Shown: piece by piece, positions 4,330 to 26,253 of the stretch | Position numbering within the stretch: position 1 is the first letter of the stretch | Layout of the letters: each line of letters begins with the position of its first letter | Source: a virus | Virus record (IMG/VR): IMGVR_UViG_3300033145_001500 | Span: 1 to 37,215 of that record | DNA: 37,215 nt | Direction: 5' to 3' (one strand) | Notes under the pieces: generated by a model | Told to the model about the DNA's origin: nothing | The model's database searches: none | The model's input: only the letters and a program-made list of their open reading frames with translations | Made by a program: the position numbers and the translations under genes

Positions 4330-4417
4330 TTAAACGAGTTATTTTTTAAATCAATGGGGAATTACGGGGTAGACAGAGATAATCGATTCTACCCCCGTTT
4401 CCCAAAGGATTTGAGCT
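4330..4417 (+). repeat. 88-bp structured leader element, copy 1
   Basis: This 88-base block is identical, base for base, to the reverse complement of 26166-26253. It lies between the DUF932-like gene and the gene at 4452, 34 bases before that start codon. It folds into a long hairpin. AAATC 4348-4352 pairs with GATTT 4408-4412. TGGGGA 4355-4360 pairs with TTCCCA 4399-4404. ACGGGGTAG 4364-4372 pairs with CTACCCCCGT 4389-4398 with one bulged C. The loop is 16 bases. A perfect 14-bp palindrome, GCTATTTAAATAGC (4415-4428), follows. The placement suggests a cis-acting RNA or regulatory element. No known riboswitch or ncRNA family is recognised. There is no U-tract, so it is not a typical terminator. 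Confidence 0.85.
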
Positions 4418-4451
4418 ATTTAAATAGCAGCTTGCAAGGGGGTTATTTCAA

Positions 4452-4664
4452 ATGGAAAAGAAAAAGCAAGAAAGAGCTATTGAAATTCTCATCAAAAATG
4501 GATTCAAAGAAGTAGAAAGTCATTCAAAAAAATATCGAGTCATGCGACATCCATCAATAAGCAAAAATTTTTATATTGGAAAAAAAGGAGCAATAAGATT
4601 TGGTTTTTCTATATCAGATTCCATTTCTCTTACATCCCGTTTTTATAAGAATTTTGGGATATGA
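4452..4664 (+). CDS. Hypothetical basic protein, 70 aa, downstream of leader element
   Basis: The ATG at 4452 follows CAAGGGGGTTATTTCAA. This leader end resembles that of the gene starting at 26146 on the other strand, which also reads AAAGGAGG...TTCAAATG. The protein starts with a Lys/Glu-rich helix (MEKKKQERAIEILIKNGFKE), followed by a predicted beta segment with KYRVMRHPS and NFYIGKKGAIRFG. No family is recognised. Its stop codon overlaps the primase start by 4 bases (ATGA), so translation of the two is probably coupled. Confidence 0.7.
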   Translation: MEKKKQERAIEILIKNGFKEVESHSKKYRVMRHPSISKNFYIGKKGAIRFGFSISDSISLTSRFYKNFGI

Positions 4665-5569
4665 AAAAACCTGTTGACATTTTGAGGAACTTTCAAATCC
4701 CATTTGTAGAACATCATCAATCTGTATCAAAAAGTTGTGTTGGGATTGATTGTCCGTTTTGTGATGATCAAAACAAACATCTTGGTATTTTTAAAAAACA
4801 TGGTAATTTTTCATGTTTCAAATGTGGTAAAAAGGGTTCTTTATTCCAATTAATCAAAACCATTAAAAATATCAGTTATTCTGAATATCAAAGGATAGCT
4901 GGCATTCAAGAGGTAGGTGATTCTACTGAACAAACTTTAAAAAGTATATTCAACCCCAAAAAAGAGGAGAGAAGGATGGAGAATAAAGCAAGTACCCTTA
5001 TTCCAATAACCTGTGATGGGATGCCTAAAAATGCCGAATATCTGATTGATAAGTTTCTTATTGAAAGGGATTTTACTTATAAAGCTTTAATTGGATACAA
5101 TTGTAAATATGGTACAGCCGGTTTCCAAGCTTACCGATTAGTTATTCCAATTTATGATAAGAACAAAAATCAAGTGGCACAGATTGGAAGAGACTTAACA
5201 GGAGTCTCAAAAGCAAAGTATAAAGTTGATCCCCCTGGATTTGAATTGAGCAAGTATCTCTATTGGGCGGGATGTGGTCTACCAATACTTGTAGAAGGTG
5301 TATTTGATGCTTGGGCAATCGCTGAATATGGTGAAATGGGCATTGCTACTTTCGGTAGTAATATATCAGATTCTCAAATATCACAATTAGTAGAATTTGA
5401 CAAACTTATATATATGCCCGACGCGGATGTTCCCGCAAAAAAAGTTTTGGCAAATGCAGACAAACTCAATTCTATTATTCATGATGTGATAATTTGCCAA
5501 TGTGAAAAAGGTGACCCATGTTCAATGAATTCAGTCGAATTACATAAACTTATAGGGGGAAAATTATAA
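4661..5569 (+). CDS. DNA primase (zinc finger and TOPRIM)
   Basis: The product should make short RNA primers for phage DNA replication. Residues 31-34 (CPFC) and 52-55 (CFKC) form a zinc ribbon of the DnaG/CHC2 type. Residues 208-260 form a TOPRIM fold, with VEGVFDA supplying the catalytic glutamate (E212) and the DAD triad at 254-256 supplying the metal-binding aspartates. The central part (residues 120-200) includes AYRLVIPIYDKNKNQVAQIG, typical of the primase region preceding TOPRIM. At 302 residues it lacks a helicase domain, so a separate helicase is expected outside the window. It is the last gene of the rightward operon. Confidence 0.9.
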   Translation: MKKPVDILRNFQIPFVEHHQSVSKSCVGIDCPFCDDQNKHLGIFKKHGNFSCFKCGKKGSLFQLIKTIKNISYSEYQRIAGIQEVGDSTEQTLKSIFNPKKEERRMENKASTLIPITCDGMPKNAEYLIDKFLIERDFTYKALIGYNCKYGTAGFQAYRLVIPIYDKNKNQVAQIGRDLTGVSKAKYKVDPPGFELSKYLYWAGCGLPILVEGVFDAWAIAEYGEMGIATFGSNISDSQISQLVEFDKLIYMPDADVPAKKVLANADKLNSIIHDVIICQCEKGDPCSMNSVELHKLIGGKL

Positions 5570-5570
5570 C

Positions 5571-5606
5571 AAATATAAAAGCCCCCACCTGAAGTAGATG
5601 AGGGCT
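5571..5606 (-). terminator. Intrinsic terminator of the leftward operon
   Basis: On the minus strand AGCCCTCATCT (5606-5596), loop ACTTC and AGGTGGGGGCT (5590-5580) form an 11-bp stem including two G-U pairs, followed by TTTATATTT. On the plus strand those two G-U positions become C-A mismatches, so the hairpin is built for leftward transcription. It lies 61 bases beyond the last minus-strand gene and directly after the primase stop, so it separates two converging operons. Confidence 0.8.
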
Positions 5607-5666
5607 TCTACTTGTGAAAGGGAGGGATCACAAGCATGAACCAGTTGAAAAGGAGAAAGGACTGGC

Positions 5667-6020
5667 TCATTTATCACTAAGTTGTTTTTTGCGAGCGGCA
5701 AGAGCCATTTGAACAGCTGGATAAATTTCAGTAGCTTCTTTAATAATATCAGCCATTTCATCTTTAGTAATTTCCTTCCCACCATTACTTGTCTCTCGCG
5801 TAGCAGTATATATCTTATATAAGCAATCACCAAGTTCTTTAACAGCTTTTCCCCATAGTTTATAAGATGCTCCAAACATGCCAAGTGCTCCTATAATGCC
5901 ACCAATTATCAGCGATAATGCTTCTCCCTTAATATAGCCTGTAACTGTTTCAAAAACACTTGCATAAACAATTGTTGGTACTATGAGAATCAGAATTAAA
6001 AAAATAATAGAACGTTTCAT
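5667..6020 (-). CDS. Small membrane protein, candidate holin
   Basis: The 117-residue product has an N-terminal hydrophobic segment resembling a signal or anchor (residues 4-20, ending VYAS), a second hydrophobic glycine-rich segment (about 34-55, LIIGGIIGALGMFGA), and a charged helical tail rich in Lys and Glu. Two membrane segments, small size and a place at the end of the late operon beside the DUF5675-like gene suggest a holin or another lysis-linked membrane protein. This is inference from topology and position. No family motif settles it. The ribosome binding site is GAAGGGAGGTG. Confidence 0.6.
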   Translation of the reverse strand: MKRSIIFLILILIVPTIVYASVFETVTGYIKGEALSLIIGGIIGALGMFGASYKLWGKAVKELGDCLYKIYTATRETSNGGKEITKDEMADIIKEATEIYPAVQMALAARKKQLSDK

Positions 6021-6034
6021 TTTTCACCTCCCTT

Positions 6035-6490
6035 CTAACATACATTTAAATGTTGGATTTTATTTGGTTTTTCATAAGTAGCAATAGTCAATTCAAGAAT
6101 ATCCTCTTGTTTTGTTATTGCCATAAACTTATTATAAGTTTTTCCACTATTTAATACAGCGCGATTCCCACGGAGCTTGTCAAAATATTGTCCCAAAACA
6201 ATACAACCAAGAGTGTCCATTAATGTATTTCCAGCATGAAAATAAATATATTTCCTATTTGGCACATTTTCAATTTGCCATACTTCCCCTCTTGTTGGAG
6301 AATCATGCTTTGAACAGATATATTCTCCATCTGGAATGCACGAAATATTGTTCTCGTTATCATACCAGGGAAGTTCAAGTGTTACGCAAAAACACATGCC
6401 CTTTAATAAAAGTACTCCAAACGTACCATTATCAGTTTGTTCAACTCTAATAATAGAAATTTCCATATTAAACACCAGCCCTATCTTCAT
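6035..6490 (-). CDS. DUF5675-like phage protein (lysis region)
   Basis: The sequence has the conserved features of the DUF5675 phage family: CFCVTLELPWYDNENNISCIPDGEY, then a GEVWQIENVPNR segment, then IYFHAGNTLMDTLGCIVLG with the His-Ala-Gly-Asn and Gly-Cys-Ile pattern. The His and Cys suggest an active site, but the reaction of the family is not established to my knowledge. It is often found near lysis genes, as here. Two starts are possible. ATG 6490 overlaps the upstream gene by 23 bases. ATG 6466 lies directly after that gene's stop and matches the usual family N-terminus (MEISIIRVEQTDNG) better. Confidence 0.8.
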   Translation of the reverse strand: MKIGLVFNMEISIIRVEQTDNGTFGVLLLKGMCFCVTLELPWYDNENNISCIPDGEYICSKHDSPTRGEVWQIENVPNRKYIYFHAGNTLMDTLGCIVLGQYFDKLRGNRAVLNSGKTYNKFMAITKQEDILELTIATYEKPNKIQHLNVC

Positions 6491-6905
6491 AAAGCCTATC
6501 TATTCTCTTATGAACCCCAGATAATGCTTCCATTACCAATTCTTGATTCTTTTCAATTTTATCAGATTTGACATGGATTAAACTATTGAGAGAATGTGCT
6601 TGAAATTCTTTATTTAGTTTAGCAAGATTCCCATTATGTTTATCAAGCGTATTTTTCATGTCTCGAATAATCCCGCTATTTGTCATAACATTATTATTTA
6701 TATCAAGGAATATTTTTCTTGCGTTTTCACGTTCTAATTTATCCTTTTGGATTTCGCCTTTTCTCCATTTCCAGAAATATGGTATCCCATTGTAGATTAT
6801 AACAATAATAACAAATAAAAATATGTAGGCAACAGGATTATTTCTAACAAAATTATTGGCATCCATCCACTTTAACATCATAGCATTTACCATTTGGTTC
6901 CTCAT
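6468..6905 (-). CDS. Membrane-anchored coiled-coil protein
   Basis: The product has one strong hydrophobic segment (about residues 25-45, VAYIFLFVIIVIIYNGIPYF), then a basic stretch and a long charged helix with coiled-coil character (about 52-140). The architecture resembles small phage inner-membrane proteins such as spanin-like or holin-accessory proteins, but no family is recognised. It lies between the fibre gene and the DUF5675-like gene. The start at 6905 is weak. An in-frame ATG at 6893 has AGGA five bases upstream and may be the true start. Confidence 0.65.
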   Translation of the reverse strand: MRNQMVNAMMLKWMDANNFVRNNPVAYIFLFVIIVIIYNGIPYFWKWRKGEIQKDKLERENARKIFLDINNNVMTNSGIIRDMKNTLDKHNGNLAKLNKEFQAHSLNSLIHVKSDKIEKNQELVMEALSGVHKRIDRLYEDRAGV

Positions 6906-6907
6906 TT

Positions 6908-9900
6908 CTATTGACTTGTGTTTCTCGCTTTGGCTTTAAGTACAGCAACTTGCCCCGGATTCATAAAAAGGGTATCCCCATTACCACCCCCAAATGTGGA
7001 ATAGGTTGCCCAGTATTCTTCGGTTCCTAACGTGCATAAACCAGCTACCGAATATACGAACTTTCCAGTAAGAGAATCAAGAATACAGAATTTCGTATAT
7101 ACTGGATTACTATTAGTATCCAATACAAATTTAATATGAATACCATCAATCAAAGTTAATGTTATGTCCCCTGGAGTATTTGCGAATGTATATGCTGAAT
7201 CCGCTGATGAAACATACAAATCTGATGCACCCCCCTTGACTTGTACTTTCATTTGCTTGAGTTGATTTGGTGTATAGCCAGAAAGATTAATCGTTTCTGT
7301 ATTATTACCAGTAGAATCGATATAATCGTAAGTGAGAGCGTCGATTATTCTAAAACCATCCTCATCATCAGTATTATCTTGCCATGTAGCTGTAAATTCA
7401 GACGTAGACGTAGGTGTCAATGCAAAATTTGAGGGGGCTGTAGTTTCATAAGTGATTGACAAATATGGGGCATCATTGTTTGCCAAAAACATAACACTTT
7501 CATAAGTAGTTGGGGCTGTAGCTGAAAAATCCTTGCTTGACAATAAAGCTATAGCCAAACTGTCCCCGGCAGTCGCTCCTATTGAATTCAATCCCGCTTG
7601 ATTGAGTATTAATGTATCCCATCCAGCAGCATAGTTATCAGTGGCGTTCCATGTTTCATTGAGAACTGTTCCTGTATGGGCTGTCCCAAATGCTTGTCGA
7701 CCATCAAAATTAACAAAATCAGTTGTATCTAACGTTGGACGATATTCATTTGCCCCAACTATATTTATATCAAAATCAGTTCCAATAGATTCTGCATAAG
7801 CATATACAAATAGAGAACCAGCCGTTGCCGAAGTAGCCCCATCGGGCATTGGAAATGTCATAAATGAACGATATATTGCATCAATATCTTCGGTAATTTT
7901 ATATTGTCCTATTTTCAAAGTATCCACAACGGTTCCGGTGGCTACATCGCGGGAATAATTATAACTGTCATAAAAAACCTGCATATAAATATAGTCCACA
8001 TCAAGAGTAATATATTCATTAGTTGTCGGGGCTGTTGATGAACGGTCTCGTTCTGTCATTAACACAAATTCAGTATTACCTGTTTTATTAATTGCGGCAA
8101 GCCCAGCAGTATTCAATTTATAAAAGACATTTGTAGAATCACCAGGGGATAAAGCAGAAACATCTTCCCCCACAGCTAACTTTACTATCCCTGTATAAGC
8201 TCCGGAATCAAGCCATCCTGTGAATAGATGAAAGTAGTTGGTTTGTGCTCCAGTAAAACCTGAGGATTGTATTACATATAAAGAATCCCCTACGGCAATA
8301 GAATTATTGCTTGTCATTTTAAATTTTACCTTAACACTATCAATATCAGCGTCATCCGGTATCGAGGATGTGTTGAAAGTGACAAATCCTCGATACGTAG
8401 AATAAATTGAACCTGATAGTCTACGGCCTATTGTTAATGTTGGTGTGGCAGTTTCCGCCCACGGATAATTTCTTGCTCCTTCATAATCTGTTGAATCTGT
8501 TGTATCATAAATATATAAATTAGGAGTAAAAAGGTCATAATTAGAAGTTTGTGGAATACTAACCAATCCCCCTGCTTCGATAGCATTGATCGTGGTAGAT
8601 AAAGAAGCAAGCGTTACAGAACCCCATAGATAAGTGGTTTCAACATCATCACCATTTTTACCAACTATTCCAAGTAAATAAGTTTCACCATATATCAAAC
8701 CTGTGGTAATAGTAATAGCTTCCCATTGTGCTTCAGTTCGCCAAGTCTTTGTTCCAACAGGATCGCCAGACGCATCTAACCAAACATGGCGCAAGGAATC
8801 TCGAATAGCAAATAGAGTTCCAGCTGGATTACTGCCACCACTAAATGAAGGGGTAATCTCCAATGAGGAAGTTTCGGTAAAATCCCAAGCTGTTGGAGGA
8901 ACGGTAAGGGTATAAAGTGAATCGGTATTTGAATCACCTTTTACCCCTGACGAGTCAGCCCGGATGAAGAACGTATATAAAGTATTCGGTGTCAAAGCGT
9001 GGATAGTGATATTTACTCTACCTAAAGGAACGTATCGTTGAATGGTATTTTCCGGCGAGTGCATTATCGAAAGCGAATCAACACCCGCCCCCGAAAGTGT
9101 CCATTCAGCATCGATGTTTGTCGTGGTCGGATTACTCAAAGCAAATGATGTGGGCGGTGGATATTTATAAACATAAAGTGTACCAGTAACTTCTGCTGTA
9201 TTGATATTGTCCCCATTTCGAGCCATGACAGAATAACGAACAGTGCCGGTTACACCCGGATCGGTGATCGTTACTGCATCCCACGTAGCATACGTATCCC
9301 AATCAATAGTTTCGCCGAGTGTTCCATCAGTTTGTACCCATTTTTGATTTGTCGAATCCCGAACAGCAAACTCTGTCCATGCTGGGTTGCCATTCACCCC
9401 GAATCCAACATCTACTGTTCCTGTTGCCCCTATATTTGTGAAATTCCAACTGTTGGGTGGATTGGCAAGGGTGTATGTAACGACCGAATCTGATGGGTCT
9501 GACCAACCATCAGCGTTGAAAGCCCGGACTTCCAATCCATGACGGGTATTGATTCCCAATCCCTCGACAGTACCAACTTCGGCTTCGGCATCGTAAGTGC
9601 CGACAGTTGACGTGTCCCCGCCGGCGTTCTTGATTTTGAAACCATCCTCATCATCGGAATTATCCGTCCATGAATAAGACAGAGTCGTTGTGGTTGCTCC
9701 TGTATTGGCAAAATCTGTAGGGGCGATTGGAGGACTCGTGTAAGTTATTTGTAAATAACATTCATGATTATCAACAACACCAATACTCAAATATTGTTTA
9801 CCTGAAGGAGGCGCTTCGGCTATTATATCCTTACTACTCAAGACCACATATTTAGTTGTATCAGTTAATGATATTGCTGCCAAACCCGCCGCATTGAGTG

Positions 9901-11209: not shown

Positions 11210-11213
11210 AATA

Positions 11214-13046
11214 TCACCTATCCCTTATTTCGCCTTCTTCGAGAGTTATATTATAAGGTCTGTCATTATCAGCGGTTAACGCCTCACCAGCAGGAAGTAT
11301 ATATTTTACTTTATTAATACCATCAATATATTCTCCGGAAACACCTTCAATTGGAACCGCGGAATAACTACTTCCACTTTTTTGATACCACCATCCCGTA
11401 ATATTAAATGAACTATCAAATACGTCAACCGTAGTACCATCAAAATCAGTAATTGTAAGTCTAAAGAATGCTTTTATCCCACCTTTTAATGGAGTCATAA
11501 TAGCTGACCATTCGGGTGTAGTATCTTTACCAAATGTGAACGTATCGACATTAATAACTGTTGGCTGTACTGGAGTATTGTCAATTGCAAAAGAATTAGA
11601 AGTTCGTGGTTCTCCAGCATCCCCTCCCAATGCAACCGCATCATAAGGAGTCAATCTCACGTATACAGTAGAATCTTTTTCAGATTTACCAGAATCCGTA
11701 TATGAATCCCAGTAAATCGTATGTTCAACGCCGGCCATATTCGAAGCAAGGTCTCTTGGATTTTCCCCCCTGCTTTCATCACTTGTTATTGTTCGAGCGG
11801 CTATTGGATTTTTAGAAAAACCAAATGTATATGCCGCATCAGAAGTAAAATAATCAAAAGTTATCGTATGCCCCGCTCCGGAATCTATAGTATATTTATA
11901 TGTTGCAGCACTAAATGTTACCTCAAAAGTAATAGTTCCGGTACCAGTCAAGGTGTCATTGGCATTCATAGCTGTTTCTAATGCTGTCGCCAAATCATCA
12001 GCAGTATCATAATCACCGTCAGGAATATCAATATTCGCGGAACCTTCATCACTTGTAAAAGCAATAACATCATTATCCGAAGTTATTGTGAAAAAATGCG
12101 TTCCAGCATAAAATGAAACGTTATCTTCTGAAAATTCAATACCAACACTACTTTCGGGAGTAGAGCCATCGCCAGAATTGTTGATGGTTACAAAAGTTAT
12201 GGCAATTGCACCATAACCACCAGCGCTATAAATATCATATTCTGTACTATCAATTGTTACACCATCTATTTTAATTTTAGTATTCCCTGTTGAAACTTCT
12301 CTTAATACGACATCAGAAGCTGTACCCCAATCCACCAGAATATTGCAATACATGTCGGCGGATGAGGCACCAAAATCACTCTCATTCAAAATATTTCTTG
12401 CTTTTACTTTATAAGTATATGTAGTGTATTGAGATAAACCATAAACAGTAACTCTGCCAGATTGACCACCACCACTCCAATCAGCTGCGGTTTGCCAAAC
12501 TTCCGAGGCATCCGTTCCACCAGTTGCTGATATATACTTCTCTTGTGTGTTATCATATATTGCAAATTCAACAGAACTATCATTATCATTTGTATCAATG
12601 TCAAAAGTTATTGTATCCGACGCTTCAGTTGGGGTATCCGAAGCTATTTCCTGTGAAGCAACAGCATCAGCGGTAAATCCAAACGTTGCTCCTGCATCAC
12701 TTCCGGAATTGGTATAAGCTATTGTATTTCCAATTCCGGAATCAATTGTAAATCCAAATGTTGCTGTATTATAAGATACTGTAAATTCAATTGACAACCC
12801 TGTCAACGTTTCACTATCATTCATAGCATTTTCAAGGGCTTCTGCTAACGCTGATGGGGAATAAAAAGCGTCTGCTATATCAATACTAACGGGGCCTCCT
12901 TTATTGCTTGTCAAAACAAGAACATCATTTGAACTTGTTATTCTAAATTGGTTATTTTCAACATAAACAGGTGCCCCCGGAGTATTGGGCGTTCCACCTT
13001 CATATGCACCGGGACTATAACCAGTATCAGTGGGCTCTACAGGCAT
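11214..13046 (-). CDS. Tail-tip/fibre-associated protein with two repeat modules
   Basis: The 610-residue product is probably a virion tail protein. It holds two copies of a ~105-residue module, at about 33-137 (FRITSSNDVLVLTSNKGG...) and about 317-424 (FFTITSDNDVIAFTSDEGS...). Each has the same order: a beta strand with NDV, an IDI.D..Y segment, a helix (LA.AL..AMN), then TIDSG and TFGF strands. Between the copies is an FN3-like segment with YTYKVKARN. The C-terminal third carries further beta-rich material (DTFTFGKDTTPEWSA). It lies between the hub and fibre genes, and its ATG overlaps the hub stop (TAATG). Confidence 0.7.
   Translation of the reverse strand: MPVEPTDTGYSPGAYEGGTPNTPGAPVYVENNQFRITSSNDVLVLTSNKGGPVSIDIADAFYSPSALAEALENAMNDSETLTGLSIEFTVSYNTATFGFTIDSGIGNTIAYTNSGSDAGATFGFTADAVASQEIASDTPTEASDTITFDIDTNDNDSSVEFAIYDNTQEKYISATGGTDASEVWQTAADWSGGGQSGRVTVYGLSQYTTYTYKVKARNILNESDFGASSADMYCNILVDWGTASDVVLREVSTGNTKIKIDGVTIDSTEYDIYSAGGYGAIAITFVTINNSGDGSTPESSVGIEFSEDNVSFYAGTHFFTITSDNDVIAFTSDEGSANIDIPDGDYDTADDLATALETAMNANDTLTGTGTITFEVTFSAATYKYTIDSGAGHTITFDYFTSDAAYTFGFSKNPIAARTITSDESRGENPRDLASNMAGVEHTIYWDSYTDSGKSEKDSTVYVRLTPYDAVALGGDAGEPRTSNSFAIDNTPVQPTVINVDTFTFGKDTTPEWSAIMTPLKGGIKAFFRLTITDFDGTTVDVFDSSFNITGWWYQKSGSSYSAVPIEGVSGEYIDGINKVKYILPAGEALTADNDRPYNITLEEGEIRDR
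11775..12098 (-). repeat. Virion module copy 2 in the tail protein
   Basis: The segment encodes about residues 317-424 of the 610-aa tail protein: ITSDNDVIAFTSD, NIDIPDGDYD, LATALETAMN, YTIDSGAGHTI, TFGFSKNPI. It resembles copy 1 at 12636-12950 and the insertion in the connector. Confidence 0.7.
12636..12950 (-). repeat. Virion module copy 1 in the tail protein
   Basis: The segment encodes about residues 33-137 of the 610-aa tail protein: ITSSNDVLVLTSN, SIDIADAFY, LAEALENAMN, FTIDSG, TFGFTADAV. It is the N-terminal copy in this protein and is followed by an FN3-like region. Confidence 0.7.
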
Positions 13047-15940
13047 TAGTACGCCTCCGATTCGATAGCTTCTATTTTTATTTCACCCTTTGAAAGGTTT
13101 TGATTTATATTAATTATTTTCCATTTTTTCGTATTCATTGTAGCTGTGCCAAACTGGTATTCAATATCGGCAAATCGTGCATTTATGAAATCGCCTATTT
13201 CAAAACATACCGCATTTAACCCAGAAGTTAATTCAATGATCCATCTCCTTTTGGTATACCATTCTATAAAATATTGGAGCAGTTTATTTGCTGTTGCATC
13301 GTCACGAATCGCCCATGCCTCAAATTCAAAGGTGTTCGTTGTAAGGACTACATTGTAAGAATTTGACGTGTAATACATAAGATTTAAACGTGTTTGGTTA
13401 TTTTCGAGATAACCCTCGACTATATTCGTATTAACAGAACCAATTTCCCCATTTCCATTAGTCATAAATAAAACTTTATTATATTCTCCTGTAGCATAAT
13501 TCTGACTGTACCTTAAAATGAAATCATTATATACTTTATCAAGAGAAATCTTCTTCATTTTATAAGAAAATATTGGATGTTTTGTAAAAACCGATGTATT
13601 TGGTGTTCCGGTAAATTCAAAAATATCTAAATCATCCGGATAATCAGTATCAGAATGAGGAAAATTATTATTGATGTTAAAAGCATTCATTTGTATCTTT
13701 CCAAGATTATCCCAAAAAACAGTTGCTTTACATTGTCTGGCAAGTTCTCCTATAATTGAATCCTGTCCACCAAAAGGAAATACATTGTTTATCCCAAGTT
13801 CATCAGACCATTGAAAAGCAAATTTCCAAGAATTTAATTGATTCATAGCTGTAATAAAAGTATCCCCAATATGAGATGAATTTAATGTACCTTTCTCAAT
13901 AGATAACCATTTTATAATTGATGCCGGATTTTCAATCAATTTTTTTGATGTTCCTGTATAAGTACCATTTATATCATCGGCAAGACCTTTTCCATTCATA
14001 TATAATTCTATCCCTAAATCGCTACTGAATCCTCGAATGATACAGATATTACTGAATTTTATTGGATTATCGGGATTAAAAGTCCCGGGAGCACCAAGAT
14101 TATCACCTGTTATGGTAATGTTGAGATTAACTTTTGTATTAGGAATGCTTGAATGGTCAAAATAAATAACTGTCTGTCCATTCACAGCTATTGGACTATC
14201 ATCACTTTTTAATTCACTGCCGTCATCTTTTAGTATTTTCCAATGTAAATTAAGATAATTTGTACCAAATCCTCCATCCGCTTGAACCTCTATTTTTATT
14301 GCCACAACAGGAAACATTTCAGAAACCCCCCAAGAATCATAATTCTGACCATTCCATTCATCGTCTTTGTGATTTATGGTAGACCAATTTGTTGGATCAT
14401 TATCTTGGGAATTGGCATAATCTGATATTCCTGTACTACTATTATATTCTATCGTCTTTACTATTATAGGTGCTAATGCTGGAATGGAATGGTGATCAGA
14501 TATAACGGCAGAAGTCAATGTATTAGGAAATACTTCTGCGCCAATTTCCATAAGATATATTCCATCACTATACCCTGTTAAATCACAAGGGAGAATAACA
14601 AACGAATTCAACTTACTATTCCATAAAGCGGCTATATCATTTACTGTGTGCATACCATGTTCAGCCACCAGATAATGATTAAATCCAACAGCTGTTTTGT
14701 ATCTTTTTACTAAATAAGATTTAAAGAAATCCGTATTTTCAATTCTCGTATCCCACAAAGTCTCAATAATACTTCCAACAAAATCCCTAAAACTTCTTTT
14801 AGTAGTAAAATCCCCAAATACTATTGGTTTACTTTTTCCTATATTATCTTCTGGTAAATATGGAAACTCACCGTCATCCCCGGTTGTTAGTATATTAGTT
14901 TTAAGACTTCTATTATATTTAAAATCATCATGCCGCAAATTTAATTGCAATTCCTTCTCGGTAAATGACCAGCCATCGACTATTCCTGACCAGACGTTCA
15001 GCATTGAGGATATATCTGTTGGCAAACCAGTTTCTTTGTCCTCAAAACCAAGATAAATTCTTGCCCTTTGATTATCGGGGGTGACTGTATTATACATGAG
15101 TTTCAATGAAGGCGTCGAATTAGAAATAACACTAAATTTTACAAACTCTGATGTAGTGGGGGCAACAGCCGTCCTATCATTTTCACTTATAATCATAAGT
15201 TTCACGGTAGTTCCAGCAACAGCATTATTAACTATCAAATCCCTACCAGCTTTATTTAATCGTAATCTTATAGTATTCTCAATATCAGATAAAGTATAAA
15301 ATTGCTCATTTAAAATAGTACCAATATAACTACCTGAACTTACCCATCCACTAAAGTCATTAAATGAAGCAAGCCCAATTGAACTATACCAATTTCCTTC
15401 ATATACTTTAAAATAAAAATCAGTAGTGGAAACATCAGCCGCTAAGGTAAATTCAATATAAGCATCTTCACAGGAGGTCAAAGCAAGAGCAGCAGGAATA
15501 TCAAATTGTATATAGCCACGAAATACCGAATATACTCCAGAAACAGTGGAATATGTTTGTCCCACTGTAAAATAATTATACAAATTCCCCGTGCCAATCG
15601 TACTATTTCGGGCTGTATCATAATCGGCATCAGATTTATAAATATATCCTGCACCAACTCGAACACCTTCTGGTTTTGGATATAGGGTTGCTTCACTATA
15701 GAACTTTATAGATTCACCAAGTTTCAATACAGATAACGATGTATCCGAAACAATACTCATACCCCCAGCACTGTCTACCCTTTCAGATATTCTAACGCCA
15801 CTTGATATTCTATTAGTATAACCTGATAAATCACTTGTTGTCGCCCATGACTTTCCGGCATTTTCTATATTCAAAAATAGTCTTGGACGTGATCCGGTTA
15901 AAAGATAATTATCAGTCACATTTGCTGGTAAAGTTTTCAT
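13046..15940 (-). CDS. Tail hub / baseplate-type protein
   Basis: The 964-residue product looks like a central tail-tip protein. Residues near the N-terminus read like a tail attachment domain (NYLLTGSRPRLFLNIENAG). A DNRLRE-like beta insertion follows (about 100-290, with FRGYIQFDIPAALALTSC). Next is a hub-type core with LQLNLRHDDFKYNRSLKT and NIGKSKPIVFGDF, a pattern I know from phage tail proteins that open with 'GkPiviG'. The C-terminal region (about 780-960) contains IGELARQCKATVFWDNLGKI and EIGDFINARFADIEYQFG, typical of hub domains that form the base of the spike. The domain reading is by eye. Confidence 0.7.
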   Translation of the reverse strand: MKTLPANVTDNYLLTGSRPRLFLNIENAGKSWATTSDLSGYTNRISSGVRISERVDSAGGMSIVSDTSLSVLKLGESIKFYSEATLYPKPEGVRVGAGYIYKSDADYDTARNSTIGTGNLYNYFTVGQTYSTVSGVYSVFRGYIQFDIPAALALTSCEDAYIEFTLAADVSTTDFYFKVYEGNWYSSIGLASFNDFSGWVSSGSYIGTILNEQFYTLSDIENTIRLRLNKAGRDLIVNNAVAGTTVKLMIISENDRTAVAPTTSEFVKFSVISNSTPSLKLMYNTVTPDNQRARIYLGFEDKETGLPTDISSMLNVWSGIVDGWSFTEKELQLNLRHDDFKYNRSLKTNILTTGDDGEFPYLPEDNIGKSKPIVFGDFTTKRSFRDFVGSIIETLWDTRIENTDFFKSYLVKRYKTAVGFNHYLVAEHGMHTVNDIAALWNSKLNSFVILPCDLTGYSDGIYLMEIGAEVFPNTLTSAVISDHHSIPALAPIIVKTIEYNSSTGISDYANSQDNDPTNWSTINHKDDEWNGQNYDSWGVSEMFPVVAIKIEVQADGGFGTNYLNLHWKILKDDGSELKSDDSPIAVNGQTVIYFDHSSIPNTKVNLNITITGDNLGAPGTFNPDNPIKFSNICIIRGFSSDLGIELYMNGKGLADDINGTYTGTSKKLIENPASIIKWLSIEKGTLNSSHIGDTFITAMNQLNSWKFAFQWSDELGINNVFPFGGQDSIIGELARQCKATVFWDNLGKIQMNAFNINNNFPHSDTDYPDDLDIFEFTGTPNTSVFTKHPIFSYKMKKISLDKVYNDFILRYSQNYATGEYNKVLFMTNGNGEIGSVNTNIVEGYLENNQTRLNLMYYTSNSYNVVLTTNTFEFEAWAIRDDATANKLLQYFIEWYTKRRWIIELTSGLNAVCFEIGDFINARFADIEYQFGTATMNTKKWKIININQNLSKGEIKIEAIESEAY

Positions 15941-19113: not shown

Positions 19114-19134
19114 AATATTCTCCCTTTGATTTGA

Positions 19135-19818: not shown

Positions 19819-19854
19819 GTTGAACCACCTCCTTCCAAATCAAATAAGGGGTAA

Positions 19855-20220
19855 TTAACTGAGAGTCAAAAGACCATTACCTTGAAAATTTCCAGTACAC
19901 GTCACAACACCACCAACAGGTTCATTCACTGTGATCCCCACAAGAATTGCGGAACCTGTATAACTGCTGGTTCCATCAACAGTGAGAGTCAATTCGGCTG
20001 CTGCTGCACCAACAAGAGCAGTGTTTGCCGAATCCCAATTCATTTCCAACGTAGCAGTCCAGTCATTCAAAGTGGGTAGATACTTTTTGTATCCAACACC
20101 CCCATCAGCAAAATCTGTAATTTCCTCAACATCACCCACATTATTGATTGTAAATGATTTTACTGAAGTGCTAAAATTAGTGAAAGCCACACTTCCACTT
20201 TTTCCAGGTATTTCAGCCAT
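19855..20220 (-). CDS. Major tail (tube) protein, short paralog
   Basis: The 121-residue protein starts at ATG 20220 (MAEIPGKSGSVAF), chosen because AAAGGAG lies 8-14 bases upstream. The frame could extend to 20265, but that would overlap the glycosyltransferase gene and lacks a good ribosome binding site. It carries DVEEITDFADG, YLPTLNDWTATLEMNWD and VNEPVGGVVTCTGNFQGNG, the same blocks as the longer paralog downstream. The short, beta-rich form fits the core tube subunit. The two proteins may form a mixed tube, or one may be the decorated form. Confidence 0.75.
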   Translation of the reverse strand: MAEIPGKSGSVAFTNFSTSVKSFTINNVGDVEEITDFADGGVGYKKYLPTLNDWTATLEMNWDSANTALVGAAAAELTLTVDGTSSYTGSAILVGITVNEPVGGVVTCTGNFQGNGLLTLS

Positions 20221-20234
20221 TGTAATACTCCTTT

Positions 20235-20861
20235 CTAAACAGGGTTCCCAAACTTTACATGCCAAGCTATATCTATAGCGGCATTCGATAAATGCTGACA
20301 GGGAACCGCCATGTCAACATATATCTTATAACCCGATTTTCGAGCCTTGTCACAAAAAAAGTAATCATCACTCATAGTCATTTTTCTATTCTTTGTTTTT
20401 ATATGAAACCATGGATATTTTGTATTTTCAAAAACCTCCCTCTTTATCAGAATACAACCTGTACCAACGCGCTGTACCTCAATCATATCATTGCTTTCTA
20501 ATTCTTTTATTGTCAGGGGCTCTTCTTTTTTACCTTTAAATCGCACAGCACACGGGGTAAATGGTGGGTATCTTTTAAAATATAAAGCGCCCACTATATC
20601 AACATTTCGATTGAACATACCCACCAAAGCATTTTTATGAATCACCATATCAGTATCAATCTGCAATAAATGTGAGCATTTTGATTCTAAAAAAATTTGA
20701 ACTATTCCATTTCTTAATAATGCAATATCATGACCGGTTCTTGCTCGAATCAATTCAACGTCAAATCCGGTTTTATCCATCGTCAATATTGATGCCATAA
20801 AATCTTCATATACCATTGGAAAACTACATGGTAAACCAATTGCGATTTTTCTCCCTTTCAT
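20235..20861 (-). CDS. GT-A type glycosyltransferase in the tail gene cluster
   Basis: The 208-residue product looks like a nucleotide-sugar glycosyltransferase of the GT-A fold. It has an N-terminal IAIGLPCSFPMVYEDF strand-loop, an RTGHDIALLRNGIV segment, and the metal-binding DxD as DTD (69-71) within LLQIDTDMVIHKNALV. C-terminal DDYFFCDKARKSGYKIYVD follows, where the DD pair and the strand match family members that carry an acceptor aspartate. Being encoded between tail completion and tail tube genes, and overlapping its upstream neighbour by ATGA, it is expressed with virion proteins. It may modify a virion protein, DNA bases or a host glycan. No donor or target is shown by the sequence. 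Confidence 0.8.
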   Translation of the reverse strand: MKGRKIAIGLPCSFPMVYEDFMASILTMDKTGFDVELIRARTGHDIALLRNGIVQIFLESKCSHLLQIDTDMVIHKNALVGMFNRNVDIVGALYFKRYPPFTPCAVRFKGKKEEPLTIKELESNDMIEVQRVGTGCILIKREVFENTKYPWFHIKTKNRKMTMSDDYFFCDKARKSGYKIYVDMAVPCQHLSNAAIDIAWHVKFGNPV

Positions 20862-21274
20862 GAACTTTCTACCTCCACTTCGTATCTAATGTTATAATTC
20901 CAAACTCCCTCGACCCGTTCCACCCCGGAAGATGCCACTTGCTTCATATATATAAATGTGAATCCTTCGACCTCTAAAGTTGTTTCCATATATTCAAATA
21001 AAGCTAATAAATTTGTTCGTATAGATTCAATTTGGGCAGCCCCCCTTGTTTTACTATAACAGCTTATTTGAATTAATACATTCTGTTGTTTACCAGATGA
21101 AAAATTCCAGTCAAAATTTTCATCAAATGAATAATAAACAGAATATGGAAACTCTACTGATTGGGGAGCTTCTTGATAATAAAATCTACCCCCAATAGAG
21201 TTATAAAAAGCATTGTGGCTTTCTTCTGTTAATTCAGTAACTTTAGTATATATAGCGTCGTTAATTGCTTTCAT
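20858..21274 (-). CDS. Tail completion/terminator-like protein
   Basis: The 138-residue product begins MKAINDAIYTKVTEL, continues with FYYQEAPQSVEFPYSVYYSF, and ends in alternating beta segments (VLIQISCYSKTRGAAQIESI). The 'aiY..l....... Y.. aP......PY.vy' pattern is like the tail terminator/completion proteins of HK97-type phages. It lies between the HK97 gp10-like gene and the tail genes, as expected for a protein capping the tail tube. The assignment is by pattern and order. Confidence 0.7.
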   Translation of the reverse strand: MKAINDAIYTKVTELTEESHNAFYNSIGGRFYYQEAPQSVEFPYSVYYSFDENFDWNFSSGKQQNVLIQISCYSKTRGAAQIESIRTNLLALFEYMETTLEVEGFTFIYMKQVASSGVERVEGVWNYNIRYEVEVESS

Positions 21275-21275
21275 T

Positions 21276-21731
21276 TTATTTCCCTGACAAAATAGCCATT
21301 ATTTTACCCTTCATTCTTCTGAAAGCGGGATGAAGGTGTGGACGAGGAGCTTGGTTAATTCTTCTCCCACGTTTATCTGTTCCAACATACCCATATTCCA
21401 AACGTTTAGCTCGTTTTTGATTAGTACCAACTCTACCAATAATTATCGCTTTTACACCCGTAATAAAAACATTAAAGGTAAACGATCCCCGATACTGTCC
21501 TTTATCAACAGCCGGTGGCTCCCCTGGAGCCGAAACAACATGATATTTTTTTCTGCCCTTCCCTTTTGCTATTTTTGTAATTCTTCTACCACCTGCCTGT
21601 GCTACTTTATAAGCGGTAAAACTCTGCTTGACATCTCCAACAAGAAGTTGACAGGCTTCTTTCAATCTTTCAGCTTCTATACCCACAATTCTATTGAATT
21701 GCCTTTTCGTATACCACTTACTTTTATTCAT
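21276..21731 (-). CDS. HK97 gp10-like head-tail protein
   Basis: The 151-residue basic protein has the distinctive VSAPGEPPAVDKGQYRGSF stretch, a GTNQKRAKRLEYGYVG segment and a C-terminal APRPHLHPAFRRM. These match the HK97 gp10-like family (APGEPP...YR.S; A..LEyGt; PRPfl.PAl). Such proteins act at the head-tail junction or in tail completion. Its ATG overlaps the stop of the upstream head-closure gene by one base. Confidence 0.85.
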   Translation of the reverse strand: MNKSKWYTKRQFNRIVGIEAERLKEACQLLVGDVKQSFTAYKVAQAGGRRITKIAKGKGRKKYHVVSAPGEPPAVDKGQYRGSFTFNVFITGVKAIIIGRVGTNQKRAKRLEYGYVGTDKRGRRINQAPRPHLHPAFRRMKGKIMAILSGK

Positions 21732-22066
21732 TATCCTATCTCAATCAATTTACGAAGGTGTAATTCCAAGTGCCTATTCGCAGAAGCTGGATTTGCTATA
21801 TAGAGTATATCATAAAAATCAGTATCGTTTCGAAACCTATCTTCCGTAGAAATAGTAATTCCATATGGAAAATCAATTAGAAAATAATGAGTAGATACTT
21901 CAGTATCTTTCGAATATAATTCAACCACTCCACTTCTGCTCGAAGGGGACGAAGTTAGAATACCTTTTATCCTTCGTATATCTTCCCATGTTTCAGTCAC
22001 AGCCCCCTGCGTATCAACGGATTCTGTTCTTCGTTGTAATACCATTTCAGTTTTCTTGCCTCTCAT
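21731..22066 (-). CDS. Head closure (stopper) protein
   Basis: The 111-residue product has VLQRRTESVDTQGAVTETWED, typical of small head-tail adaptor/stopper proteins ('...v.v.r.t...d..G...e.w......'), and a C-terminal beta region with DFYDILYIANPASANRHLEL. It follows the connector and the 69-aa gene and precedes the gp10-like gene, the usual order for this module. It would close the connector after DNA packaging. Confidence 0.8.
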   Translation of the reverse strand: MRGKKTEMVLQRRTESVDTQGAVTETWEDIRRIKGILTSSPSSRSGVVELYSKDTEVSTHYFLIDFPYGITISTEDRFRNDTDFYDILYIANPASANRHLELHLRKLIEIG

Positions 22067-22067
22067 A

Positions 22068-22277
22068 TTACTTAGTCTTTCCTATTTTATAGTTTATAGC
22101 TGTATTCTCAAGATCAAATTCACAATTAACAACTAATGTTAAAGTGACTTCATTCAATCCGCCGACAAAAGATTTTATCTCAACCCCTCGCACAAATCTT
22201 GATATATCTACTTCACCCAAAACAACTTTTCCTCTTCCCCTCTTATCAAGAGAAAATTTTAAATCACATTTTTGCAT
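22068..22277 (-). CDS. Hypothetical small protein of the connector cluster, 69 aa
   Basis: The product begins MQKCDLKFSLDKRGRGKVVL and continues VDISRFVRGVEIKSFVGG then NEVTLTLVVNCEFDLEN, an all-beta pattern. Similar tiny proteins occur beside head-tail connectors in other phages, from general memory. The gene lies between the connector and head-closure genes. Function unknown. Confidence 0.7.
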   Translation of the reverse strand: MQKCDLKFSLDKRGRGKVVLGEVDISRFVRGVEIKSFVGGLNEVTLTLVVNCEFDLENTAINYKIGKTK

Positions 22278-22294
22278 AATTAACCCCCCTTTTT

Positions 22295-23425
22295 TTAAAC
22301 CAATCTTTTCTTATACCGATTCAAAATCAATCTCACATCGGATGGTAAAATCTTTTCAATTTTAGCGGAAGAATCCCCAAGTGAAAATGTTTCCGTTCCA
22401 AAAGTTTCTTCACTCCACCTTTGATACCAGAATTTCACAAGAATTTTTACTGCCAATTGCAAATCATCGGGCATTGTCGAATATCCGGCAGTATAATCAA
22501 CAAAAATATTCTGTTTGCCTTTTGGAAAAGACCTACTATTATTTATTACAATTCCGTAATTTTCATCCACATCAAAATAGTCCTCAGCCCCTTCATAAGG
22601 AATTTTTAAATTTACATAATTATTCTGAATACAATTTAAACCAAATTTTGTAATTAGTTCAGATGAAGCAAAACTATTATAAGTAGAACTTGTTACCTCG
22701 GCTGACCAACCACTTCCAATCGCATTAATGGCAGCAACCACAAGAGAAATCGTTGCATAATTAGCAAATAAAATTGTTGAATCATCAGAACCATCTTTTG
22801 ATAAAATGATTCCTGTTGATGTAACCGATACAGAAGCTCTTGTATACTTGCTTGTATTCGTGATTCGAATAACGTCACTGGTTCCTATAGCAACCCGTGT
22901 CAAAGCAGTAACCGGATAATTTTTTAAGTGTAAAATATTATAACCTGTACCATCATATTTTTCTTTTGAATAAGTGGTGCTGTCAAATATTCTTCTACAA
23001 TAATATTTTACAAAATCCTCTACCGAATCATGAATAACATCTACAATCGCAGTTGGATCACCTGCGGCTACATCCGATGTAATGATTCTCGCTGCTGCAT
23101 GATCATCGTTAAACCCAAATGTCAGTCCCCCATCTGAACCTGTATTAGTATATGTAAATGTATGTTCGGCTCCTGCATCAAGTGTGAATTTCCTTGTGGT
23201 AGAACTAAACGATACAGTTGATGTCATAGAAAAAGCGGTATCAAGTGCAGTTTTTAATGTCGCGGCAAGAGCATCCCCATCATATGTTCCATCAGCCACA
23301 TCTATTTCAGTGGCATCACCATCATCATATGTGATAATTAATACATCGTTAGAAGCTGTTATTTTGAAATAACCCTCTGCCACTTCCAAAAAACTATAAA
23401 TATTTGCAGATGATACAATTGACAT
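22295..23425 (-). CDS. Head-tail connector (gp6-like) with an inserted module
   Basis: Residues 1-17 and 125-376 read as a gp6-type head-tail adaptor. After an N-terminal SSANIYSFLEVAEG helix there is VDVIHDSVEDFVKYYCRRIF, then KEKYDGTGYNILHLKNYPVT, typical of the adaptor family. The C-terminal part has DYTAGYSTMPDDLQLAVKIL and a helical end. The adaptor is split by a ~100-residue insertion (about 19-119, FKITASNDVLIITYDDGDAT ... TLDAGAEHTF ... LTFGF) that matches the module occurring twice in the tail protein at 11214. The insertion falls between helix 1 and helix 2. A second insertion-like stretch is at about 175-260. The normal family length is about 100-200 residues. Confidence 0.8.
   Translation of the reverse strand: MSIVSSANIYSFLEVAEGYFKITASNDVLIITYDDGDATEIDVADGTYDGDALAATLKTALDTAFSMTSTVSFSSTTRKFTLDAGAEHTFTYTNTGSDGGLTFGFNDDHAAARIITSDVAAGDPTAIVDVIHDSVEDFVKYYCRRIFDSTTYSKEKYDGTGYNILHLKNYPVTALTRVAIGTSDVIRITNTSKYTRASVSVTSTGIILSKDGSDDSTILFANYATISLVVAAINAIGSGWSAEVTSSTYNSFASSELITKFGLNCIQNNYVNLKIPYEGAEDYFDVDENYGIVINNSRSFPKGKQNIFVDYTAGYSTMPDDLQLAVKILVKFWYQRWSEETFGTETFSLGDSSAKIEKILPSDVRLILNRYKKRLV
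23069..23371 (-). repeat. Virion module copy inside the connector
   Basis: This segment encodes about residues 19-119 of the connector. It shares with the module copies at 11775-12098 and 12636-12950 the ordered blocks ITxxNDV, IDxxDxxY, a helix around LAxxLxxA, (I/L)D(S/A)G and TFGF. The copies are protein-level homologues; I did not align the DNA. Confidence 0.7.
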
Positions 23426-23435
23426 AATAACTACC

Positions 23436-24026
23436 TCAGTCTAAATGTTCATATTCAAATGCATTCAGTTTTATACTAACAAGATTTGAAGCTGTTTCAG
23501 ATATTATTACATATAAATAAACTGTATTCTGTTTGAGAATCCATTCATTTATACCTTGTAATTCACCTCCAAAGCTCTTACGAGAACCCCATTTCTTTCT
23601 TGATATAAGGGTTCCATAATCAGTGGCAATATAATCTTTCTTTATTGTTACAGATGGAGAATTGCTACTATTTCTATTTCTATTATATAATAACAATGAT
23701 GCACCAGCAGTGGCTCCTGTTGGATTTTCATAAATTCTTGCTGATGTAACATATTCTCCGGCAAGTGTAAAATACATATGAGACCAAACCGTGGTATCTG
23801 GGGAGGTCACAGCAAGAAACAAAGAATCACCACTATTTAATAATGTATCAAATTGAGCGGAGTACATGCTTTCTTTATGAATTAGATAATGGACATATTC
23901 CATAATAACTGAAGCATCTGTATCCGCATCTGTTAAACTACGTGGGTTGCCTAAATCATTCATATTTTGTGCCAAAGCAAAATATGGACATAAAATAAAC
24001 ATGATTATTATAGATAGTTTTTTCAT
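23436..24026 (-). CDS. Capsid-region beta protein with signal peptide
   Basis: The 196-residue product starts with a typical Sec signal peptide (MKKLSIIIMFILCPYFALAQ, cut probably after ALA). The mature part has EYVHYLIHKESMYSAQF, YTLAGEYV-like strands, ARIYENPTGATAGASLLLYN with the RNRNSS stretch, and YLYVIISETASNLVSIKLN. The 'E.pt...G..l...NrNR' pattern resembles proteins commonly encoded near phage capsids and thought to be virion structural. The Sec signal is unexpected for a protein assembled inside the cell. Position is between another signal-bearing gene and the connector. Confidence 0.7.
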   Translation of the reverse strand: MKKLSIIIMFILCPYFALAQNMNDLGNPRSLTDADTDASVIMEYVHYLIHKESMYSAQFDTLLNSGDSLFLAVTSPDTTVWSHMYFTLAGEYVTSARIYENPTGATAGASLLLYNRNRNSSNSPSVTIKKDYIATDYGTLISRKKWGSRKSFGGELQGINEWILKQNTVYLYVIISETASNLVSIKLNAFEYEHLD

Positions 24027-24035
24027 AAGAACCTT

Positions 24036-24623
24036 CTATTTATATTTATTCACAAGTCTATGAATTCCATAAAGCGTATCCGCCACAGTATAACCATAAA
24101 TTTTTATTGAATCAAACAACGCAATATTAGTATTAATATATATATCAGATGAATCCCCAGAAGCCTTATTGAATTTCCAATCTACGGTTTTACTGCCTGA
24201 CATCAGATTACCCCAACCACCACTTATATTTCCAGAGGCTTTCGCCATTACCGTATAGTTACTTTCACCCGAAGTGGTGCTTGAAATAGTAGTAACTAAA
24301 TCAGTATAGCCTAATGTTGCGAAAGTCCTTCCTTGCCCTGCGGCAGTAATTGTGTCAATGTAGGTAGTGGATGTTTTTAGCGTTGCCCAAGCGCTTCCGG
24401 TATATACGTATATAAGCCCAGTATCTGTTTCAATAAACGTTGAGCCTGTCTGCCCCGCACTCATAGTAGGTTTTGTATCAGAGGAAAGACCATAATACGT
24501 AACTACCTGCTGTTGTAATCGAATAGCAGCAAGGGCATCTTCTGTTTCAATCATATCCATAAAACAGACAGATATCCAAAGAAAAAATACTGCTAAACAA
24601 AAAAGATAAATCAATTTCTTCAT
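24036..24623 (-). CDS. Capsid-region protein with N-terminal signal/anchor
   Basis: The 195-residue product begins with a basic start and long hydrophobic segment (MKKLIYLFCLAVFFLWISVC). It has TYYGLSSDTKPTMSAGQTGS then FIETDTGLIYVYTGSAWATL, a pattern found in many phage virion proteins. A beta-rich C-terminal domain follows (NYTVMAKASGNISGGWGNLM). With the next gene it forms a pair of exported-looking proteins amid head genes. A membrane-anchored or exported role is as likely as a virion role. Confidence 0.65.
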   Translation of the reverse strand: MKKLIYLFCLAVFFLWISVCFMDMIETEDALAAIRLQQQVVTYYGLSSDTKPTMSAGQTGSTFIETDTGLIYVYTGSAWATLKTSTTYIDTITAAGQGRTFATLGYTDLVTTISSTTSGESNYTVMAKASGNISGGWGNLMSGSKTVDWKFNKASGDSSDIYINTNIALFDSIKIYGYTVADTLYGIHRLVNKYK

Positions 24624-24624
24624 T

Positions 24625-24738
24625 TCAAACCCCCAATGTTATCCATATTCTCTTACAAATTGTATTTATCCTATTATCATATTCTTTTAAAGTAAATTTT
24701 AAAACAGATTCTTTTATTTGCTTTTTCACAATTGGCAT
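24625..24738 (-). CDS. Possible 34-37-aa small basic protein
   Basis: A frame opens at ATG 24738 directly after AGGAGG, or at GTG 24729 nine bases after it; the latter spacing is better. It encodes a basic peptide (VKKQIKESVLKFTLKEYDNR...) ending at TGA 24625-24627, one base before the next gene's ATG. It fills the gap between two genes exactly, which supports it. No motif is seen. Confidence 0.4.
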   Translation of the reverse strand: MPIVKKQIKESVLKFTLKEYDNRINTICKRIWITLGV

Positions 24739-24739
24739 C

Positions 24740-24758
24740 CTCCTATTAATCATAGGAG
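24740..24758 (-). promoter_or_regulatory. Hairpin covering the small gene's Shine-Dalgarno
   Basis: CTCCTAT and ATAGGAG form a perfect 7-bp stem with a 5-base loop (TAATC on the plus strand). On the minus-strand RNA the ATAGGAG arm contains most of the AGGAGG serving the small gene at 24625, so the hairpin would hide it until opened, for example by ribosomes or a bound factor. Confidence 0.45.
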
Positions 24759-24793
24759 ATGGCAATAAACCACCCCCTATTTCTCAATACTTG

Positions 24794-25726
24794 TTATGCT
24801 TCGTCAACAGAATCAGTTCCAGGCCACTCGATAGCTTTTTCACCATCAGCATTAACCACAAGAATTGGATCAAACTGGTGCATCTTACCAGGGACAATAC
24901 ATTCATCAATATTAGCTGCGTCATCACTTAATACACAGTAAATATTATACATATTGCCCGTCGCATTCGTGTCAACTTGAATACTAATATCTTCCGGTGC
25001 AGCCGTTTCAAGTAAAAGATTATAAAGCGTAAGATTTAATGCTTCATCACCTTCATTAAAAATTACCCCCTCTGACCAATCGCCACCATAAGCATGAATA
25101 TCATGAATAACGACATCATCACATCCATCAAGATGAATTGCATTAAGCGCATCACCATCAGTAGTATTTCTACCTCGAATAATTATATCATGCAAATGAC
25201 ATCTGGTTGCGCTTGCATTCAAACTAATAAGATCAAGAGCTTCACAAGCCGAAGCCTCAATAATCTCAATATCATAAATATGACAACCTGCGGCGGAAAT
25301 CTGAAAAGGATCGGTCGCAGCATCAATACCAACCGACCATCTAAAATTACGCATCACTGTCCCCGCACCCGATATAATCATAGAGGCGGCGGCAAGAGTT
25401 GTGATAGAAATCGTGGGTCTTTGGTCTCCTTCACCCAATCCAACAATAGTTAAACCATCAACATCAATAGCAAGCCCACCATCAGTTGTTATTGTCTCGG
25501 TATGACCTGGCATCACTATAATACGATCACCGTTATTAGCAGTACATCTGCCAACAGCGTAATCAATTGTAGAAAAAGGCTTATCCGGATTTTGACCACT
25601 ACCAACAGAATTAGCTTTTGTGGCTGATCCGGAATCTACCCAAAAAAGATTCCCAGTTGTATCTGTTTCATTTACAACTGTAAACATCCCCCCGGATTGT
25701 TTTCGTACAAACAGTGGAGTTTTCAT
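24794..25726 (-). CDS. Capsid-associated beta-helix (pectin-lyase-like) protein
   Basis: The 310-residue product is a likely right-handed beta-helix. The N-terminus reads FWVDSGSATKANSVGSGQNP then DKPFSTIDYAVGRCTANNGD and IIVMPGHTETI, a signature I know from beta-helix proteins of marine and environmental phages encoded next to the capsid. Successive Val/Ile-rich rungs follow (IVGLGEGDQRPTI, MIISGAGTVMRNFRW, DIIIRGRNTTDGDALNAI, VVIHDIHAYGG). A virion surface role, such as decoration or binding, is the usual guess. No catalytic residues are evident. Confidence 0.75.
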   Translation of the reverse strand: MKTPLFVRKQSGGMFTVVNETDTTGNLFWVDSGSATKANSVGSGQNPDKPFSTIDYAVGRCTANNGDRIIVMPGHTETITTDGGLAIDVDGLTIVGLGEGDQRPTISITTLAAASMIISGAGTVMRNFRWSVGIDAATDPFQISAAGCHIYDIEIIEASACEALDLISLNASATRCHLHDIIIRGRNTTDGDALNAIHLDGCDDVVIHDIHAYGGDWSEGVIFNEGDEALNLTLYNLLLETAAPEDISIQVDTNATGNMYNIYCVLSDDAANIDECIVPGKMHQFDPILVVNADGEKAIEWPGTDSVDEA

Positions 25727-25801
25727 AATAAATTACCTACTTTCTCCGGGTTCTAACCGGTGTGAAAGAATTACTTTGAAACGGGAGATTCAGCCATCAT
25801 T

Positions 25802-26146
25802 TTATTTTCTCCCAATGGTCTTTTTACCATCTTTTTCACGAATCGTTTTGCTGTTCCTCTTTGCATTAATTGGTTTGCCATTCCGTCCGTCAGATTTAGA
25901 ATACTTCCTTCCGGAAAACCCATCCATTCTGTTTCCAATTGAATTTTCATTTCTTTCCCCCTTATGTGAATTTACCTTTAGAATCCCGCTGTTTCTTTCT
26001 TTTTTTACCTTTTCAATATACAATTTACCTTTTGGAGGATTTATTTCGTCCCCATTCATTTCAGCAATACGAGAAGGGGATGAGAATTCTACTATTTGAC
26101 CAATTTCAAATCCCAAGCATTCCTCAATTATTTCATATTTTGGCAT
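25802..26146 (-). CDS. Hypothetical basic protein downstream of leader element
   Basis: The 114-residue product starts at ATG 26146 with AAAGGAGGTGTTCAA just upstream. The first ~50 residues (YEIIEECLGFEIGQIVEFSS...) could be a small beta domain. The rest is a low-complexity Lys/Arg/Asn/Ser-rich tail. It is the gene directly downstream of the second 88-bp element (26166-26253), whose end is 19 bases before the ATG. It lies between the capsid-associated genes at 26250 and 24794. Function unknown. Confidence 0.65.
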   Translation of the reverse strand: MPKYEIIEECLGFEIGQIVEFSSPSRIAEMNGDEINPPKGKLYIEKVKKERNSGILKVNSHKGERNENSIGNRMDGFSGRKYSKSDGRNGKPINAKRNSKTIREKDGKKTIGRK

Positions 26147-26165
26147 TTGAACACCTCCTTTGAAC

Positions 26166-26253
26166 AGCTCAAATCCTTTGGGAAACGGGGGTAGAATCGA
26201 TTATCTCTGTCTACCCCGTAATTCCCCATTGATTTAAAAAATAACTCGTTTAA
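26166..26253 (-). repeat. 88-bp structured leader element, copy 2
   Basis: This block is the exact reverse complement of 4330-4417. On the minus strand it begins with the TAA stop of the gene at 26250-26960 (bases 2-4 of the element) and ends 19 bases before the start of the 25802-26146 gene. It has the same orientation relative to its downstream gene as copy 1. It folds into the same three-part hairpin. Both copies are followed by a purine-rich Shine-Dalgarno and TTCAAATG. Confidence 0.85.

Follow-up and report, generated by a model that had tools for sequence, protein, structure and literature searches.

Why would one 88-bp sequence stand, unchanged in every base, at both an early and a late gene junction of the same phage? 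The window analyzed here, which is the whole stretch of DNA studied, is a linear contig of 37,215 bp from an uncultured IMG/VR virus record. Early-type genes occupy its plus strand (47-5569) and structural genes its minus strand (5667-37176). The two copies of the element and the genes around them are located as follows.

4330-4417, plus strand: early copy of the 88-bp element, with near-identity reaching 4424
26166-26253, minus strand: late copy of the 88-bp element, with near-identity reaching 26159
3579-4322, plus strand: DUF932 gene, upstream of the early copy
4452-4664, plus strand: 70-aa ORF after the early copy, family unassigned, overlapping the start of the primase gene and absent along with the element from the related contig G009
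4661-5569, plus strand: DNA primase gene, downstream of ORF 4452; its G009 homologue abuts the DUF932 homologue
26250-26960, minus strand: conserved gene following the major capsid gene, upstream of the late copy, decoration-like by position
25802-26146, minus strand: 114-aa ORF downstream of the late copy, with N-terminus and position conserved in the relatives L010, L012, L064, and L067

The original prediction that the copies are identical on opposite strands was confirmed by direct reading, a repeat search, and string comparison. All 88 of 88 bases are the same, forming an inverted repeat across the two operons. The repeat search extends it to a near-repeat of 95 bp at 98% identity (4330-4424 and 26159-26253), with two mismatches that are both transitions and both lie within the last 7 bases. 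The longest repeats in dinucleotide-shuffled windows are 14-17 bases, and chance is therefore excluded for the 88-base repeat. The early copy begins 7 bases past the stop of 3579-4322, and 34 bases separate its end from the ATG at 4452. The late copy starts one base ahead of the TAA (26252-26250) of 26250-26960, so that this stop codon lies inside the element, and its end is followed by 19 bases and then the ATG at 26146. Both copies are sense relative to the downstream gene. The description of the element as an intergenic, structured, sense-oriented sequence before a small gene, with a Shine-Dalgarno at both sites, is thus supported. A shared start context had also been proposed; TTTCAAATG is indeed present at both copies, but it is not unique to them, as it also precedes the element-free gene 3579.

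Relatives with matching late gene order were gathered by capsid and terminase searches. A homologue of gene 26146 is present in L010, L012, L064, and L067, and the element is absent in all four; it was not found in any relative record examined. The gap between the post-capsid gene and the 26146 homologue is 24 bp in L010/L061, 22 bp in L064/L065, 11 bp in L012/L066, and 30 bp in L067, compared to 103 bp in the window. Since the relatives lack the element at this site, their orthologous late gene can dispense with it. L063, L068, and L069 lack gene 26146, and the gap to the next homologue is 44, 90, and 58 bp, respectively. The L068 gap (7921-8010) contains a 16-bp hairpin that is unrelated to the element and was equalled in stability by 0 of 1000 shuffles. 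Another unrelated hairpin, of 10 bp, lies in the L069 gap (7610-7667), where 72 of 1000 shuffles were as stable, a level not significant alone. Since these hairpins occur without the downstream gene, a hairpin at this junction may serve the upstream transcript or the boundary itself. They favour a role in intercistronic mRNA.

At the early junction, G009 (53 kb, the contig of L064) is the only relative with a homologous locus, encoding both DUF932 and primase homologues. There are 0 bp between these two genes in G009, and the element and ORF 4452 are both missing. The window has 338 extra bases here (4323-4660), comprising the element, the ribosome site, and ORF 4452. This empty-site comparison consists of one relative, with 38% primase identity. 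ORF 4452 appears to be an insertion-like extra gene. No relatives of it were found in phages, viral contigs, Pfam, PHROGs, or NCBIfam. Structure matches to its predicted model (pLDDT 77), which include HicA and an RNase H3, have E values of 0.05 or worse and are too weak to name it.

Both copies are best read as lineage-specific gains, because the late gaps are 11-30 bp in the relatives versus 103 bp in the window and the early gap is 0 bp in G009. Loss in every relative would be a possible, though less economical, alternative. The recent duplication proposed from the 88/88 identity fits the absence of the copies from the relatives' orthologous sites, and the pattern looks like a recent double insertion rather than an ancient conserved leader. 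The flanks of the early copy offer a further hint.

4315-4428, plus strand: early copy with the 8-bp direct repeat TTAAATAG on each side, a possible target-site duplication

A flank repeat like TTAAATAG is equalled at 0.3-0.7% of genome positions; if it were closed, the resulting junction would be compact and ordinary, with a good ribosome site. The late copy is flanked by CAAAG, a 5-bp repeat equalled at 17-25% of positions. The candidate duplications are thus unequal (8 versus 5 bp), and terminal inverted repeats are not convincing. A clear transposition signature is not seen, because the flank repeats of the two copies differ in length; transposition as the route of arrival is at most suggested by the flanks.

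The related contig G009 carries intergenic repeats of its own. One pair (12551-12652 and 14577-14679, minus strand) is about 105 bp long and 88% identical, with each member just before an early-gene ATG. These repeats carry TTGACA-N17-TATTTT and an upstream A/T-rich stretch, and are probably a duplicated early promoter cassette. A second, inverted pair (11686-11779, minus strand, and 32393-32481, which is L113 12393-12481, plus strand) is 76% identical over 94 bp, and each copy begins right after a stop codon with GATAAACGGATTTTAAGGCGCTGAAATG. No homology was detected between the G009 intergenic repeats and the element in the window. They indicate that, in this phage group, intergenic stretches of about 100 bp are copied from one operon to another.

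The transcript of either copy is predicted to fold into a single interrupted stalk of three parts with a 16-base loop.

4345-4415, plus strand: hairpin stalk of the early copy, with outer stem UUUAAAUC/GAUUUGAG, middle and inner stems, and a 16-base loop
26168-26238, minus strand: hairpin stalk of the late copy, whose 3' strand has an alternative pairing partner in GUUCAAAU, at the start codon of 26146

The three stems recognized earlier are all present, the third with a one-base bulge, and they stack into one stalk. The minimum free energy is -30.0 kcal/mol, versus a shuffle mean of -16.5, and a value as low was reached in 1 of 2000 shuffles. With flanks included, z is -4.2 for the early copy and -2.9 for the late copy. 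An intrinsic terminator was considered and rejected, as a U-tract is absent and neither copy has a terminator-like site on its coding strand.

At both sites, therefore, a strong stalk without a U-tract lies in sense orientation between cistrons. Our leading explanation, which we hold tentatively, is that a hairpin cassette was inserted twice and recently, and acts as an intercistronic RNA structure. A cassette of about 88-95 bp would have entered compact operon junctions of this phage lineage on two occasions: behind the capsid genes in one case and, in the other, between the DUF932 and primase genes, together with or beside the 70-aa extra gene. One copy was probably templated by the other, or both derive from a shared mobile source. 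In the transcript, the stalk would most likely be an RNA structure at the cistron boundary that alters mRNA stability or processing on either side, and translation of the downstream gene would be affected only secondarily. Its manner of action would resemble that of the malE-malF REP hairpins. REP-type intercistronic hairpins of this kind raise the stability of upstream mRNA. Like them, the element is a stable hairpin without a U-tract, positioned inside an operon directly at the stop codon of a gene that is probably expressed at a high level. Unlike them, it has two copies only, and the likeness is one of placement and fold. Of the readings, we rank this intercistronic mRNA structure highest; a translational switch comes next, with a neutral mobile element close to equal to it. 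The originally proposed cis-acting RNA that would coordinate one early with one late gene is possible, but was unsupported in that form: the element is absent from the relatives' orthologous sites and start accessibility is ordinary.

A translational operator or switch is unlikely. Here GGAUUUGAGC would pair either with AAAUC, leaving the stalk closed and the ribosome site free, or with GUUCAAAUG, shutting the start. A phage protein or the folding path would choose between the two states, so that both genes share one repressor or timer. In the late copy, the minimum-energy fold pairs AUUUGAGC with GUUCAAAU across the start codon, and its ensemble energy beats that of the closed outer stem by about 2.4 kcal/mol, but in the early copy the equivalent pairing is about 5.6 kcal/mol worse. 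Both element-bearing genes also have TTCAAATG, which is found at just one other start among the 44 in the window. Translation of T4 genes e, 32, and 43 is governed by structures near their starts, and a hairpin shortly upstream of or over the start codon can repress it (PMC3014915). Unlike these gene-specific operators, however, one identical element precedes two unrelated genes here and is missing from their orthologues, including the orthologous late gene of the four relatives. Start-site accessibility of the two downstream genes ranks 7 and 14 of 44 in long context and 7 and 36 in short context. This is unexceptional against all 44 genes, and unusual occlusion of the start sites was rejected. 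A broader form seems more doubtful still. It holds that the element is a very small portable RNA switch of about 90 nt which, once inserted downstream of a stop codon and ahead of the following ribosome site, would use mutually exclusive UUCAAAUG-start pairing to place any downstream gene, early or late, under a single translational signal of the phage.

A miniature mobile element of the REP or MITE kind, neutral or selfish, mobilized by an enzyme supplied from elsewhere and left at intergenic sites since insertions at others would be lethal, is likewise improbable. Two lineage-specific insertions of identical sequence, a palindromic core, and the 8-bp flanking repeat at the early copy are what such an element would leave. 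Nevertheless, no transposase is present among the annotated genes examined, significant terminal inverted repeats are absent, and the flank repeats are inconsistent in length. The like orientation of both copies to transcription also weighs against it, though as a 1-in-2 argument. No further copy was found by the patterns used in 84,980 species genomes, viral contigs, phages, or plasmids; searches of hosts and other phages with 25-mer, 21-mer, and exact-stem/free-loop patterns gave nothing, nor did blastn against plasmids. The two database checks suggested with the original prediction were similarly negative. Rfam covariance models gave no family at the gathering threshold, with permissive matches at E 0.29 or worse, and BLASTN across phages returned only matches of 23-28 bases (E 0.9). 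Two other identities were discarded. The one open frame of the element (LNELFFKSMGNYGVDRDNRFYPRFPKDLS) matches nothing in phages or the PDB and does not point to a protein-gene fragment, and a tRNA or attachment site, raised by the T-arm-like AATCGATTCTACCCCCG, was rejected, as the window has no tRNA; a weak match in L053 showed, by eye, no further similarity.

A DNA-level control site that spread to both operons, serving a phage-encoded regulator as binding site or promoter, is less probable again. The early leader repeated in G009, with its TTGACA-N17-TATTTT, provides a parallel, and G009 also encodes a sigma-70-family protein (L112 12651-13184, minus strand) whose gene adjoins one early-leader copy. 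The inverted repeats of the cluster K mycobacteriophage ESAS were similarly judged likelier to be protein-binding DNA than RNA hairpins (PMC3203893). In the window, a search of the coding strand for sigma-70-like sites identified no promoter within the two copies or directly following them. There are two copies only, and the unusual RNA stability of the stalk is not required of a DNA site.

The element was further compared with two known families of repeated phage elements. ESAS consist of 17-bp half sites beside the 13-bp SAS, occur in many copies in the non-structural half only, and are conserved at the same genes of related phages (PMC3203893). Like ESAS, the element takes the form of an imperfect inverted repeat, lies immediately ahead of the ribosome site and ATG in some genes only, and is repeated in the genome. 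Unlike ESAS, it occurs just twice, including once in the structural operon, and is missing at the orthologous late junctions of four relatives. The 13-bp SAS of cluster K, GGGATAGGAGCCC, is not present between the element and the ATG at either copy. The T4-type PeSLs (promoter-early stem-loops), as described in papers that cite the original work, combine an early promoter with a stem-loop terminator, occur in many copies, and behave as mobile regulatory cassettes, with a similar motif in the archaeal virus HGTV-1 (PMC4503421, PMC3950731). The element resembles the PeSLs and the HGTV-1 motif in being a short repeated intergenic stem-loop cassette tied to the insertion of an extra gene between existing genes (PMC4503421, PMC3950731). 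Neighbouring genes come and go between relatives here as they do beside PeSLs, ORF 4452 being absent in G009 and gene 26146 in L063, L068, and L069. The element differs from PeSLs in having no recognized promoter (sigma-70-like) or terminator (U-tract), and in having two copies, one in the late operon. Because the promoter and terminator of PeSLs and the SAS and conservation of ESAS are lacking, we assign the element to neither family, although by analogy it may work like either of them.

In the tightly packed operons of phages, one seldom gets to see a control element arrive. In this case, related phages provide junctions for comparison, some having the element and some lacking it, at two places. 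If the hairpin alters expression, regulation would have spread by the copying of a ready-made hairpin, beyond the T4 and cluster K cases; if it is inert, it would be a minimal mobile element of phages.

An assembly artefact, with one copy or the junction between the copies false, is very improbable even for identical copies on an uncultured linear contig: four relatives share the gene order and strand found across the late copy, which makes misassembly there unlikely, the early flanks have the order and strand of G009, the flanks differ between the copies, and the near-repeat ends carry two transitions. Recombination between the inverted copies would invert 21.7 kb (4418-26165) and swap the genes after the early and late copies. 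As against such a flip, the arrangement seen in the window agrees with that of the relatives at the late junction.

Some other features of the window were also observed. The ORF at 2773-3549 (plus strand) contains about fifteen 24-nt tandem units encoding an 8-residue repeat (DAGYATIK / NAGDATIE). The ORF at 34227-34616 (minus strand) is glycine-rich, with repeats every 27-36 nt of the GFGFGCN / GYGSGYN type. The region 35038-35313 (minus strand) contains a fragment, ELVLDFTLGSGTTAVACIETNRRYIGIEID, that by eye resembles the final part of a DNA methyltransferase; a full gene is lacking.
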